A DNA stretch of 64,000 nt from Stieleria maiorica. GTDB taxonomy: Bacteria > Planctomycetota > Planctomycetia > Pirellulales > Pirellulaceae. Where the stretch lies: positions 3,656,402 through 3,720,401 of the forward strand of contig NZ_CP036264.1 of NCBI RefSeq assembly GCF_008035925.1, given 5' to 3'. Position 1 is the stretch's first letter. Each line of letters opens with the position of its first letter. The translations under genes and the position numbers were made by a program. The notes under the pieces were generated by a model that was given only the letters and a program-made list of their open reading frames with translations, made no database searches and was not told the DNA's origin. Positions 14,986 through 23,818 of this stretch are shown here, one piece after another.

Positions 14986-17631
14986 ATGACGCTGTCGGGC
15001 CAATGCCCTGTTTGCCGTACGACGCTCGCTTTCACCGAAGCGTCGTTGGTCGCTGCGCACTGCGAAGGGGCAGTGGTGCCGGCGGAAACACCCGTGCTGG
15101 AATGCCAATGCGACACGACGTTGATCGCGACTGGCCTGGCCGCTGCCACCGAGGTCGCGGCCGAATGCACCGCTTGCGGCAGCAACTACGTCGTCGATCG
15201 ATCGGCAGCGGGTGAAGAATTGCCATGCCGCTGTGGAGCAGTCGTCAAAATCCCGACCGCCATCCTAGTTCGAGTCACGGTCGCTAAAGACGACGGCAAC
15301 ACGGCCTCCGAACAGAGCCTCGTCGATCTCGATCACGACGCCGAAGACGGAGCGTCAAACCTGCCCCAACAGCCGACCCCCGAGGTCGTGGCGGAAGTCG
15401 CCGAGACGTTCGACGACGATCAGGTCCCATGCGAAACTCTTGGCGAGTTCCGCTACCCGGACGGCGAATCGGAGCCACACGCTTCAGAATCGGAATCGGA
15501 CGACGAAGCGATTCAGCTTCCGATCGTGGGGCTGCCGGAGTTGTATTCGCTGCAGGTTCCCGAGTTCGTGGCGGAAGTCGCCGAGACGTGCGGCGAAGAC
15601 CAGGTCCCACGCGAAACTCTTGGCGAGTTCCGCTACCAGGACTGCGAATCGGAGCCACAGGCTTCCGAGTCGGAATTGGTCGACGACGAAGTGATTCAGC
15701 TTCCGATCGTGGGGCTGCCGGAGTTGTATTCGCTGCAGGTCCCCGAGGTCGTGGCGGAAGTCGCCGAGACGTTCGACGAAGATCAGGTCCCATGCGAAAC
15801 TCTTGGCGAGTTCCGCTACCCGGACGGCGAATCGGAGCGACACGCTTCAGAATCGGAATCGGACGACGAAGCGATTCAGCTTCCGATCGTGGGGCTGCCG
15901 GAGTTGTGTTCGCTGCAGGTCCCCGAGGTCGTGGCGGAAGTCGCCGAGACGTTCGACGACGATCAGGTCCCATGCGAAACTCTTGGCGAGTTCCGCTACC
16001 CGGATGGCGAATTGGAGCCACACGCTTCAGAATCGGAATCAGTCGACGACGAAGCGATTCAGCTTCCGATCGTGGGGCTGCCGGAGTTGTATTCGCTGCG
16101 GGTTCCCGAGGTCGTGGCGGAAGTCGCCGAGACATTCGACGAAGATCAGGTCCCAGGCGAAACTCTTGGCGAGTTCCGCTACTCGGACTGCGAATCGGAG
16201 CCACACGCTTCAGAATCGGAATCGGTCGACGACGAAGCGATTCAGCTTCCGATCGTGGCGCTGCCGGAGTTGTATTCGCTGCAGGTTCCCGAGGTCGTGG
16301 CGGAAGTCGCCGAGACATTCGACGAAGATCAGGTCCCACGCGAAACTCTTGGCGAGTTCCGCTACCCGGACGGCGAATCGGAGCGACACGCTTCAGAATC
16401 GGAATCGGTCGACGACGAAGCGATTCAGCTTCCGATCGTGGGGCTGCCGGAGTTGTATTCGCTGCAGGTTCCCGAGGTCGTGGCGGAAGTCGCCGAGACG
16501 TTCGGCGAAGACCAGGCCCCAGGCGAAACTCTTGGCGAGTTCCGCTACCCAAACGGCGAATCGGAGCCACACGCTTCAGAATCGGAATCGGTCGACGACG
16601 AAGGGGACTTGGAACCAGAGTCGGTGGTTTCCTGCCCGGGGTGCCGACGCGAGTTTTCGGTGACCAAGGCGGAGATGGGGCAGACGGCAGAGTGCGAGTG
16701 CGGTTTCGTATTCGTGATGCAAGAGAACGTTGATGCACTCGACTCGGCATTGTGCAGCGACTTGATGCCCTACCAACCCTTGGCCATCGACCGTACCGGG
16801 GCCAAGGTAATTGCCGACCGAGGCGAGGTGGCGGAGGCGTTCGAGAAGCGTTCTGACCGTCCAACCGCGTCTCCGGGTGTGCCCACGGCAAATCGGCATC
16901 GCGATCGACCACGACGTTCCAACTTTGCCGGAAACTTGATCGTCGTCGCCGCAGCGTTGATGTTGATGGCAACCGCAATCGGATTCGTTTACCGAGATCG
17001 CTTGGGGTTCCCAGTCGTCGCTTTGAACGGTGTCGCCGAGGCACCCAAGCGGGGCGGTCCGTTGCCGATCCCTGCGGCCGAAGCCACGGTGACGACCGAG
17101 AACGCAACGCCGCGGCAACCGAACGAGAGCCCAACTTCGCCAGAAAGATCCTGGGGAGACGCCCCCAACGACGTCCAACCCCCGGAACCGTCGCCTGAGC
17201 TCGTTGTTCAATCGGCGCACCGAAGTATCCCCTCGCCGCCAAAGCTGTCTTCATTCTTACGTTCGGTGTACTTGCAGGCGCGGGAATTGGAAACGGAGGC
17301 GACTCTCGGAAAAGACACGTTGTATTTGTTCAGTGAAATGGTGAACCAGTTGGACGCATCAGGTGTACAGTTTTCGGTCGCCGATCTGTTTTGGCTGGCC
17401 GACACCTGGGAGGGGTTTGGCCGGCGAGCGGCGAATCCCGATCTGGCGTCAAAGTGTTATTGGCAGGCCGCTGGTGCCTTTGCGTTGGCGCAGACGCTTG
17501 ACGGGATCGGACCGCAGGATCGCTTGATCGCCGATCAGCGTCAGCGCGAATTGTCTCAGAAGTCGCGATATGCACTGCGAGTGGCATCTCATCAGGAGCC
17601 CGCGGAACCACCGACCAGTGAACGCCGCTAA
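14986..17631 (+). CDS. Zinc-ribbon membrane protein with seven near-identical tandem repeats
   Basis: The 881-residue protein is not recognised as a whole. The N-terminus carries Cys pairs of zinc-ribbon type (CPVC at 7-10, CQC, CTAC, CRC). Seven tandem 60/61-residue acidic repeats follow (about 132-540; typical core ETLGEFRYPDGESEPH and IQLPIVGLPELYSLQVP). Then come another ribbon (CPGCRREF with CECG), one membrane helix at about 646-668 (LIVVAAALMLMATAIGFVY), a Pro/Glu-rich linker and a helical C-terminal domain (about 745-881). It may be a membrane-anchored sensor or scaffold. The repeats are almost identical in DNA, implying recent expansion. The next gene also encodes a single-helix membrane protein. 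Confidence 0.8.
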   Translation: MTLSGQCPVCRTTLAFTEASLVAAHCEGAVVPAETPVLECQCDTTLIATGLAAATEVAAECTACGSNYVVDRSAAGEELPCRCGAVVKIPTAILVRVTVAKDDGNTASEQSLVDLDHDAEDGASNLPQQPTPEVVAEVAETFDDDQVPCETLGEFRYPDGESEPHASESESDDEAIQLPIVGLPELYSLQVPEFVAEVAETCGEDQVPRETLGEFRYQDCESEPQASESELVDDEVIQLPIVGLPELYSLQVPEVVAEVAETFDEDQVPCETLGEFRYPDGESERHASESESDDEAIQLPIVGLPELCSLQVPEVVAEVAETFDDDQVPCETLGEFRYPDGELEPHASESESVDDEAIQLPIVGLPELYSLRVPEVVAEVAETFDEDQVPGETLGEFRYSDCESEPHASESESVDDEAIQLPIVALPELYSLQVPEVVAEVAETFDEDQVPRETLGEFRYPDGESERHASESESVDDEAIQLPIVGLPELYSLQVPEVVAEVAETFGEDQAPGETLGEFRYPNGESEPHASESESVDDEGDLEPESVVSCPGCRREFSVTKAEMGQTAECECGFVFVMQENVDALDSALCSDLMPYQPLAIDRTGAKVIADRGEVAEAFEKRSDRPTASPGVPTANRHRDRPRRSNFAGNLIVVAAALMLMATAIGFVYRDRLGFPVVALNGVAEAPKRGGPLPIPAAEATVTTENATPRQPNESPTSPERSWGDAPNDVQPPEPSPELVVQSAHRSIPSPPKLSSFLRSVYLQARELETEATLGKDTLYLFSEMVNQLDASGVQFSVADLFWLADTWEGFGRRAANPDLASKCYWQAAGAFALAQTLDGIGPQDRLIADQRQRELSQKSRYALRVASHQEPAEPPTSERR
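15379..16608 (+). repeat. Seven tandem 180/183-bp coding repeats
   Basis: Units start with CCCGAGGTCGTGGCGGAAG or a one-base variant at 15379, 15559, 15742, 15922, 16105, 16288 and 16471; the last is incomplete. Spacing alternates between 180 and 183 bp because a Val codon (VDDE versus DDE) is present or absent. All spacings are multiples of three, which also keeps long spurious frames open on both strands. Confidence 0.97.
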
Positions 17632-21682: not shown

Positions 21683-21800
21683 AGCATGGCTGCGCTTGTT
21701 TCGGACGGGCGTTGTCGCTATTTGCGACCCATGACTGCCAATCGATGACCTCAACCGGGAATCTTACAGGAGTGTCCTCGCGGATTCGGTTCTGCCACAC

Positions 21801-21880
21801 ATCCGCGGGTACGCTCTGCCATCCGCGGGTACGCTCTGCCATCCGTGGGTACGCTCTGCCATCCGTGGGGGGCTCTCAAA
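21801..21880 (+). repeat. Four tandem 20-bp repeats
   Basis: The unit ATCCGCGGGTACGCTCTGCC is repeated at 21801, 21821, 21841 and 21861. The third and fourth units carry CGTGGG instead of CGCGGG, and the fourth is degenerate at its end. There are no spacers, so this is not a CRISPR array. Confidence 0.9.
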
Positions 21881-21978
21881 GGTCGCGTTCCAATGGTGCC
21901 GGATCGGTTACAATCACACGGCGGCGTTGCTGGCTCACGTCAAGTTATCGAGCAGCTTTTGCTTAAGTGGATGGCTTG

Positions 21979-22023
21979 CCATGCTCTGGCGAGCGTCGCT
22001 ACGTCAAGATAGCTCAGTCCAGC
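21979..22023 (-). repeat. Copy D (half) of the palindromic element
   Basis: The sequence from CCATGCTCTGGCGAGCG onward matches the reverse complement of one arm of copy A over about 27 nt, with one mismatch (TCGCTAC for TAGCTAC). The other arm is missing. Confidence 0.65.
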
Positions 22024-22069
22024 AAACCGCTACTTGGGCAGTGTTCACGCCTCTTCTCGGGGATGATTG

Positions 22070-23818
22070 GTGACGGAATCGGCTTCTTTGCATCAGCCTG
22101 CCGCGTCGCGGCCGCTGGTGACGCGTCTGATGGGGATGGAGACCGAGTACGCGACCTTGGTGGCGAATCGGCCCGAGTTGATGACCGATGATCTGCCGCG
22201 TTTTTCGGAGATCTATTCGCGAATCTGTGCCGCCATTGGCCGCAATCAACCGACCGTCCCCGGCGTGTTTGATCAGCACCAACTGTTTCTCGCCAGCGGT
22301 GGAGCGGTGACCTGCGAAACGCATCCCACCTTCCACGCGCTACCGGGAGGCTTGGTCGAAATCGCAACGCCGGAAGTCACCAGCCCGGATGAACTGTTGG
22401 CTTGCCAGCGTTCGATCGATGCGCTGGTGGCCGATGCGGCGGAAACGGTAAACGAATTTGACGTGCGTCTGCTGAAGAACAGCAGCGATGCGCTGGGACA
22501 CGTTTACGGTTGCCAAGAGAATTACGAGGCGGTGGTCGCAACGGGGGTTTGGTTATTGGTTTATCGCAGCTGTATCCTGCTGTTATGGATGATGCAGTTG
22601 GTCAGCGTGGTCGTCTCGTTGCCGGTGCTTGCCGCTGCCTATGGCGCAATGATGTGGATTCGATTTCGTCGTCGCCGCAGTCACTGCGGCGGTGACGAAA
22701 CACCTGATTCACCGCCATCCTCGGACGAACAGAACGCGGGGCAGTCGCCCGCCGAACTCTTTGACACGCTGCCCCCTTGGGCTCAATCGGTGCTGACGGG
22801 ATTGCTCCGCTTCATCCACTGTCCCACAGTGATCGTCTTGCGAATGGTCGCCCGTCACGTGGCATTCCGAAAGCAGCGGAAATACCTGACGGCGTTGTTG
22901 GTTTCTCGCACGGCGCTTTGCGGCAGCGGTGATTTGGATGAAGAGGGGCGATATCGATTGAGCGCGAAAGCGATGGCCATTGATGTCGTCGCCGACATGG
23001 GACGCTATCGCGGCGAACGACCGATCTTTGTCTATGGCCATTGGCTGGGGCACTTTTGCGAACGATCGTTTTTGTCACTCGGGGCGACCAAGGCGATGTT
23101 CGCACGACGTCAACGATTACAGATCGGATTGTCGGACTCCAATCTGTCCGAGCTGGCCGAATACGTCAAACTCGGATCGGTCTCACTGGTTTTGGACATG
23201 ATCGAATCGGGGGCGACGAAGGAATTCGTGACACTTTCGCGCTCCGTCGCCGCCTTGCACGAGATCACGTCGGACTGGAATCTGGTGCGACGAGTGATGA
23301 CCAGTCGAGGTCGGTTGAGTGCATTGGAAATCCAACGCCGGTATTTGAAGGCGGCGAAACGATTTGTCGACCAGACGCCGTGGCTCGAGCGTGGGGAGGC
23401 CGAATTGGTGGTCCAGCGTTGGTCAGACCTGATCAACGTCGTGTCCGCCTTCCGGCGCGATTCGCGGAACGTTACTCCGGCGCTCGGCAGGGTGGACTGG
23501 TTGAGCAAGCGTTGGATGATCGATCAGCTCGGCGAGCACGCCGAGTGGCTGGAAAAAAGGAAGACCGACCTGCGCTATCACGAACTCTCGCCCGACGGAT
23601 ATTTCCAGCGATTGGCTGCAGCGAACCCGTCGCTGGCGTTGATCGCCCCGGAACGAATCCGCCGCCGTCGCCGCTGGCCGCCGGCGGACTCCCCCGCGGC
23701 CCGACGCGGCTGGCTGATCCGCGAATTCGCCGGCAGCGGCAATTCGATCACCGCAGACTGGGGCTACGCGATGGTGCGCGCAGGGGGAGAAACCAAGCGG
23801 GTCGATTTCAAACACTGA
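22070..23818 (+). CDS. Dop/PafA-family (Pup ligase/deamidase-like) protein with inserted membrane helices
   Basis: The 582-residue protein matches the carboxylate-amine ligase fold of PafA and Dop, which attach or remove the ubiquitin-like modifier Pup. Family blocks in order are RLMGMETEYA (about 19-28), ATPEVTSPDEL, LLKNSSDALGHVYGCQENYE, the block IGLSDSNLSELAEYVKLG with LVLDMIESGA, SALEIQRRYLKAAKRFV, and VDWLSKRW with LRYHELSPDGYFQRL. About 159-200 is strongly hydrophobic (one or two helices) and is followed by an RRRR/Ser/Asp/Pro-rich linker, all inserted where soluble family members continue directly. The Asp expected before the HPE-like block is not evident. No Pup, Mpa/ARC or proteasome gene is nearby. 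Start GTG 22070 (TTG 22067 is also possible). Confidence 0.82.
   Translation: MTESASLHQPAASRPLVTRLMGMETEYATLVANRPELMTDDLPRFSEIYSRICAAIGRNQPTVPGVFDQHQLFLASGGAVTCETHPTFHALPGGLVEIATPEVTSPDELLACQRSIDALVADAAETVNEFDVRLLKNSSDALGHVYGCQENYEAVVATGVWLLVYRSCILLLWMMQLVSVVVSLPVLAAAYGAMMWIRFRRRRSHCGGDETPDSPPSSDEQNAGQSPAELFDTLPPWAQSVLTGLLRFIHCPTVIVLRMVARHVAFRKQRKYLTALLVSRTALCGSGDLDEEGRYRLSAKAMAIDVVADMGRYRGERPIFVYGHWLGHFCERSFLSLGATKAMFARRQRLQIGLSDSNLSELAEYVKLGSVSLVLDMIESGATKEFVTLSRSVAALHEITSDWNLVRRVMTSRGRLSALEIQRRYLKAAKRFVDQTPWLERGEAELVVQRWSDLINVVSAFRRDSRNVTPALGRVDWLSKRWMIDQLGEHAEWLEKRKTDLRYHELSPDGYFQRLAAANPSLALIAPERIRRRRRWPPADSPAARRGWLIREFAGSGNSITADWGYAMVRAGGETKRVDFKH

Follow-up and report, generated by a model that had tools for sequence, protein, structure and literature searches.

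The Pup_ligase-family gene of the window

We analysed a 64,000-nucleotide stretch of the Stieleria maiorica genome (Planctomycetota, Pirellulaceae; NZ_CP036264.1, positions 3,656,402 to 3,720,401 of the forward strand), hereafter the window, for a PafA/Dop-like gene of the Pup_ligase family and the Pup-like protein that its product may use. A previous reading of the letters alone (the sequence-only reading) had placed a Dop/PafA protein at 22070..23818, and the open reading frame (ORF) is present there on the plus strand (Table 1). Residues 20-566 of its product match the Pfam model Pup_ligase PF03136 (E = 1.3e-72, 245.7 bits, cut-off 25), and the structure model shows the PafA/Dop fold. The hidden Markov model search and the structure prediction, both proposed in that reading, thus place the protein in the Pup_ligase superfamily, which has the glutamine-synthetase fold. 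No other PF03136 gene occurs in the genome, which was searched in full (one contig, 99.99% complete). The two NCBIfam equivalog models do not accept it: the ligase scores 133.3 bits with TIGR03686 (PafA; 551.3 required) and 123.3 bits with TIGR03688 (Dop; 492.3 required). Its identity to PafA is 24%. A search of viral contigs for relatives of the ligase found none.

A hydrophobic insert and a conserved glutamate

The insert of about 100 residues, with a hydrophobic stretch and a basic linker, that had been noticed in the sequence was borne out. Y153 in the ENY block and F267 are separated by 113 residues, in which a hydrophobic stretch is followed by a basic cluster. Kyte-Doolittle means over 19-mers reach 2.34 in residues 154-198 and are at most 0.92 outside residues 141-279. 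In the structure model, two long helices make up the insert, the first of 48 residues, joined by a link that is modelled less confidently (block means 65-83). The protein also has two non-overlapping hydrophobic 19-mers. Pattern parsing of the insert failed in 25 of 116 rows, and the question was repeated by alignment on 81 sequences (the window protein and 80 named loci). The Y153-F267 stretch measured 87-164 residues in 80 of them, the exception (L156) being a fragment without the region, and at least two hydrophobic 19-mers were present in 77. Because length and hydrophobic 19-mers are kept in nearly all of this set, the insert is a family trait and not the assembly artefact that the sequence-only reading had considered. 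It may form a membrane hairpin, contain more segments or lie as a tilted helix.

The aspartate that usually precedes the HPE-like block was indeed absent. Profile alignment puts Glu84 opposite Asp64, the catalytic Asp of PafA in 4b0t; 4bjr carries Asn there. Glu84 was invariant in all 116 sequences of alignment A5 (window included), and in the 81-sequence set 78 have Glu at this position, L169 has Asp, and L152 and L156 are gapped there. The checked Glu, Arg and His letters were kept in 78 to 80 of the 81 sequences. From E27 to E84 there are 57 residues, compared with 46 in PafA and 84 in Dop (strand 1 to the catalytic Asp), a spacing that does not accommodate a Dop-loop. As judged from the alignments, Glu84 is common to members with an adjacent Pup gene, the change from Asp to Glu is family-wide rather than a peculiarity of the window, and it keeps an acidic residue at this position.

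Table 1. Features of the ligase locus and related genes elsewhere (window coordinates unless another contig is named)
Feature	Position	Strand	Details
Pup_ligase-family (PafA/Dop-like) gene	22067..23818	+	583 aa from TTG 22067, or 582 aa from GTG 22070
Region upstream of the ligase, Pup site in linked relatives	21683..22066	+	no Pup-like ORF
Strand-1 GhExE motif (E25, T26, E27)	22139..22147	+	predicted Mg/ATP site; motif alignment
Glu84, aligned with Asp64 of PafA	22316..22318	+	profile alignment; invariant in 116 sequences of A5
Family-specific insert after strand 4, residues 154-266	22526..22864	+	hydrophobicity, alignment, model
Hydrophobic stretch, residues 154-198, then basic cluster	22526..22660	+	Kyte-Doolittle; helix 160-207 in model
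Second, weaker hydrophobic insert helix, residues 237-265	22775..22861	+	19-mer mean up to 1.49
Unlinked Pup-like gene	genome contig 5727556-5727756	-	67 aa; C-terminus ...HYLIRSNTLCDGE
Proteasome-superfamily ORF	L003 1306-2079	-	Pfam match

An unlinked Pup-like gene

No Pup-like ORF was found adjoining the window ligase. Within 2.5 kb of the ligase, the window's clade has several ORFs that end in GE or GQ, and none fits the Pup model (best E 0.82). The Pfam Pup model gave only a sub-cut-off match of 16.2 bits in the genome, inside a 472-aa frame. The earlier statement that the window has no Pup therefore holds, but does not extend to the genome as a whole, in which a Pup-like gene lies about two million bases from the ligase. 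Model A3, built from 12 linked Pups and no unlinked one, had its best match in this genome at 5727556-5727675 on the minus strand (E 1.08), in a frame ending DDPMHYLIRSNTLCDGE. At E<=0.1, A3 matched 97 of 241 genomes of the bacterial family, including 10 same-genus genomes in which the gene is distant from the ligase; 94 of these matches extend to the last model position. Twenty unlinked regions, selected as model matches and aligned as A4, were examined, and in all 20 the ORF ends in DGE before the stop, with the common tail Y..R.[ND]...DGE. Genome G013, outside A4, matches the A4 model at E 4.3e-16. Over the last 32 codons, Ka/Ks between the S. maiorica gene and four relatives was 0.15-0.22. 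The small gene thus ends in CDGE, an end conserved in relatives, and is unrecognised by the Pfam Pup model; against solved structures, planctomycete Pups gave chance-like matches only. Because profile searches are silent, homology to actinobacterial Pup is argued from position, size, C-terminus, co-occurrence and the 2008 description discussed below.

Downstream of the unlinked Pup gene, 8 of 11 same-genus regions have a same-strand operon with a Ser/Thr protein kinase (PF00069, 4.9e-48). The operon (L079 860-5444, minus strand) holds a protein without a Pfam family over cut-off, a 227-aa protein, the kinase and a further ORF.

Co-occurrence of ligase and Pup

Presence was scored with the better of the A3 and A4 searches at E<=1e-3, provided that the match extends to the final position of the model. 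By this count 105 of 120 ligase genomes have a Pup, as do 2 of the 121 others (Fisher p 9e-49, a test that ignores kinship); with A3 alone the counts were 79 of 120 and 0 of 121. The two ligase-free genomes with Pup are a fragmentary one (G229) and one with a stop inside the frame (G163). A same-genus genome on one contig (G011) has neither gene. G016 (8.9e-5, at a contig end) was counted as Pup-less because a match must reach the last model position. Weak internal matches (E 0.018-0.08) in ligase-free G068, G157, G067, G080, G095, G118, G169, G202 and G203 were left out. The results indicate that ligase and Pup co-occur across the family, also after unlinking, although not as a perfect rule.

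Separation of the two genes in one clade

Outside the window's clade, 12 of 13 relative regions carry a 51-70-aa ORF ending in GE directly upstream of the ligase (starts chosen by hand; the thirteenth, L035, begins at a contig end), and the 14 regions from the window's clade, among them the window itself, all lack an upstream Pup-like ORF. Five genera (g1, 12; g14, 3; g76, 1; g80, 3; g83, 15) contribute 34 genomes in which ligase and Pup are unlinked. The two lie on different contigs in 26 of these, which in draft genomes may be contig breaks in single cases, and 0.59-7.4 Mb apart in linear contig coordinates in the other 8. In 13 genomes of g12, g81, g82 and g7 the two matches are 29-95 bp apart. 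A midpoint-rooted FastTree tree of 65 sequences, with g82 not included, grouped the ligases of the five unlinked genera in one clade (local support 0.995) and left the copies of g12, g81 and g7 outside. The window ligase falls on the same side of this tree as ligases of the Rhodopirellula baltica-like genome G195 (L071), in which the gene order is Pup, ligase, 832-aa protein. Four of five examined Pup regions of g83 have a homologue of the 832-aa protein downstream of Pup, with the ligase missing; in G213 a hisA-like gene stands between the two. This suggests that in g83 the ligase gene moved away from a Pup that kept its place, and it also connects the unlinked with the linked Pup. The synteny was not seen in g1.

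Among the 80 named loci, 54 have a Pup-like ORF upstream of the ligase (53 at E<=0.01, L208 at 0.55), as scored with a Pup model that includes Pups from some of these genomes; many of the loci also overlap the G-numbered genomes. All 54 ORFs end in GE, and the gap exceeds 150 bp in three. An upstream Pup-like ORF is missing from the 21 loci closest to the window ligase (L132-L152), from L192 and from a Rhodopirellula fragment that is 51% identical (L187); L155, L156 and L181 come without upstream sequence. Linked loci include Candidatus Uabimicrobium amorphum (L197) and metagenome-assembled Leptospiraceae (L208, L209), Myxococcota (L211), Deltaproteobacteria (L201, L207) and Thermoanaerobaculia (L198). 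In 27 regions searched for a conserved ligase neighbour besides Pup, none rose above antisense frames outside the window's genus.

Two ligases occur in Roseiconus nitratireducens JC645 (L139, L210), one of the unlinked type and one divergent with its own adjacent Pup. Genome G007, taken as this strain, has a second, linked ligase-Pup pair beside the unlinked one, and the two ligases are perhaps parallel systems. Divergent PF03136 matches are paired closely on one contig in L031/L032 (G022:C75), G112, G114, G116 and G235; G022, G112, G114 and G116 have an ordinary ligase elsewhere as well. L031/L032 were not part of the ligase alignment or tree.

Survey of proteasome components

Of the 20S subunits only beta was searched for, and its bacterial model matched none of the 241 genomes at E<=1e-10; its positive control was weak, because four archaea match and no genome exceeds the bacterial cut-off. 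Mpa/ARC (pup_AAA), with five candidates per genome scored, was likewise over its cut-off of 504.75 in none of the 241; eight genomes reach 208-241 bits. The control for this model gave one genome over the cut-off, taken to be Corynebacterium. Six sub-cut-off pup_AAA matches were present in S. maiorica, and the two best are FtsH with Peptidase_M41. A single Proteasome-superfamily ORF occurs in this genome (257 aa, 27.7 bits, over the Pfam cut-off), far from the window; the bacterial 20S beta model does not reach E<=1e-10 with it. Judging by their sequences, we take this ORF to be of the Anbu/HslV type and its neighbour to be transglutaminase-like. The genome scan for Pup and proteasome genes suggested in the sequence-only reading thus yielded the unlinked Pup-like gene and neither bacterial 20S beta nor pup_AAA over cut-off, the partners expected of a canonical PafA.

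Other features of the window

A 183-bp unit is repeated 6.7 times (93% matches) at 15379-16603, within ORF 14986-17631, which encodes a hypothetical protein with acidic repeats of about 60 residues. At 21800-21869, between an S1-domain gene and the ligase, a 20-bp unit is repeated 3.5 times.

Comparison with known systems

This kind of system was already described in 2008 by Iyer, Burroughs and Aravind (PMC2588565). According to that paper, the Pup ligases of Rhodopirellula and Plesiocystis have four trans-membrane segments inserted after strand 4 and no linked proteasome genes, pupylation of membrane-associated proteins is suggested, and the Pup gene is stated to be invariably adjacent to the PafA gene. 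PMC2837639 describes the same two genera again and raises lateral transfer as an explanation. The window ligase resembles the ligases so described in fold, in the hydrophobic insertion after strand 4, in having no linked proteasome genes and in its planctomycete host. It differs in that its Pup is unlinked, that no membrane-protein gene corresponding to the linked one of that account is known beside it, and that its model has two long insert helices. In the available part of PMC7947786, single-copy planctomycete PafA/Dop homologues, about 29-31% identical to PafA and Dop, root a tree as outgroup. By this description they are the same protein group as the window ligase, and a Pup partner is not mentioned in that part. 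A search by title or abstract start in the openly licensed literature found no further paper on planctomycete pupylation. New here are a Pup unlinked from its ligase, the conservation of the Glu, the survey of proteasome genes and a wider host range.

The window ligase shares with actinobacterial PafA (4b0t, 4bjr) the fold, the GhExE, Arg and His motifs and the absence of a Dop-loop-sized spacing; unlike PafA, it has Glu for Asp64, a hydrophobic insert and no detected bacterial 20S beta or Mpa/ARC. Unlike Dop (4b0r, 5lrt, 7oyh), it has neither the Dop-loop spacing nor the Asp, and it scores below the Dop cut-off.

Interpretation

We consider it likely that the window encodes a membrane-anchored enzyme of the Pup-ligase type, which uses the unlinked Pup-like protein and attaches a tag that is not proteasomal. 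The glutamine-synthetase-fold domain would sit at the cytoplasmic face of the membrane, anchored by the helical insert after core strand 4. ATP would phosphorylate the gamma-carboxylate of the C-terminal Glu of the Pup-like protein, and the activated Glu would be passed to attacking lysines of membrane or membrane-near proteins; this order of events, and its place at the membrane, we infer from PafA and from the fold. A tag with a terminal Glu from the outset would not require a Dop deamidase, and there is no second PF03136 gene. Since no bacterial-type 20S proteasome gene was found, tagging probably serves something other than proteasomal destruction. It might, speculatively, act in regulation or sorting, mark proteins stably or feed a membrane protease such as FtsH. 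The computations themselves establish the fold, the conserved motifs, the hydrophobic insert, the lack of the proteasome components searched for, an unlinked and conserved Pup-like gene and its co-occurrence with the ligase; ligase activity, the use of this particular Pup, the topology in the membrane, the substrates and what becomes of the tag belong to the interpretation.

Several results weigh against this interpretation. The fold score of the model is slightly higher to Dop than to PafA, and the model has two insert helices instead of four membrane segments. N152 is replaced by Ser and Q352 by Glu in 14 of the 81 sequences each, and Glu at the catalytic position could lower activity. The S. 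maiorica Pup-like gene has the poor A3 match given above, and its 71 bits with A4 are circular, the gene being in A4. Its full-length Ka/Ks is about 0.4, and tail Ka/Ks of other same-genus pairs runs from 0 to about 0.7 (high, with few changes, in G001-G002). Neither Pfam nor PDB profile searches recognise the planctomycete small proteins as Pup, the co-occurrence test takes no account of kinship, and at E<=1e-3 Pup was not found in 15 of the 120 ligase genomes, including the complete single-contig genome G129. The Pup-less G129, the uneven Ka/Ks values and the tentative identification of Pup slightly lower our confidence in the membrane-anchored Pup ligase and slightly raise it in the use of another substrate.

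In that other-substrate alternative, which the sequence-only reading had raised as a repurposed enzyme, Pup is no longer used, another carboxylate (free Glu, a peptide or an envelope precursor) is ligated at the membrane, and the small unlinked protein is unrelated or vestigial. The unlinking in the window's clade, the replaced catalytic Asp, the silence of Pfam on the small protein and the 15 Pup-less ligase genomes agree with it. Glu84, however, also occurs in members with an adjacent Pup, the co-occurrence outlasts unlinking, and the tail of the Pup-like gene in the genome, with its Gly-Glu end, is conserved; we regard this alternative as unlikely. An equally improbable view is that the protein is a Dop-like depupylase or deamidase, as several relatives are named in databases, with Pup conjugates or Pup itself as substrate. 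The sole PF03136 gene of the genome would then leave no family member for making conjugates, deamidation is unneeded for Pups that end in Glu, and the E27-E84 spacing is too short for the usual Dop-loop; taken together, the conserved ATP/Mg-site letters, the PafA-like spacing, the presence of just one copy and a tag ending in Glu point to a ligase more than to a depupylase. The Glu at the catalytic position would also suit a catalytically inactive pseudoenzyme with a regulatory role, binding Pup or ATP at the membrane, which is very improbable given that the checked Glu, Arg and His letters are kept and that Glu is acidic too. The membrane-tethered modifier ligase, one of the two possibilities raised from the letters, thus remains the best reading, one that PMC2588565 had put forward for planctomycetes.

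Beyond the single protein, we tentatively propose, with doubt slightly outweighing confidence, a proteasome-free, membrane-tethered Pup conjugation without a dedicated depupylase, in which Pup is a stable or regulatory modifier. It would extend over 105 of the 241 family genomes and records from other phyla, use Glu for the catalytic Asp and have outlived the separation of its genes in the Stieleria/Rubripirellula/Novipirellula clade.

To our knowledge, research on pupylation has dealt almost entirely with its role in marking proteins for degradation. A ligase-tag pair that is conserved where neither bacterial 20S beta nor Mpa/ARC was found, and where Dop is missing as a separate enzyme, would be a natural case for studying proteasome-independent pupylation. 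The role of pupylation in such a setting is a question that the 2008 prediction had already posed. With the unlinked Pup, ligases of Stieleria, Rubripirellula and Novipirellula that look like orphans can be tested: the predicted mass signature on lysine is +819.307 Da (SNTLCDGE) in S. maiorica and +861.337 Da (ANTHHDGE) in the Rhodopirellula baltica-like genome.
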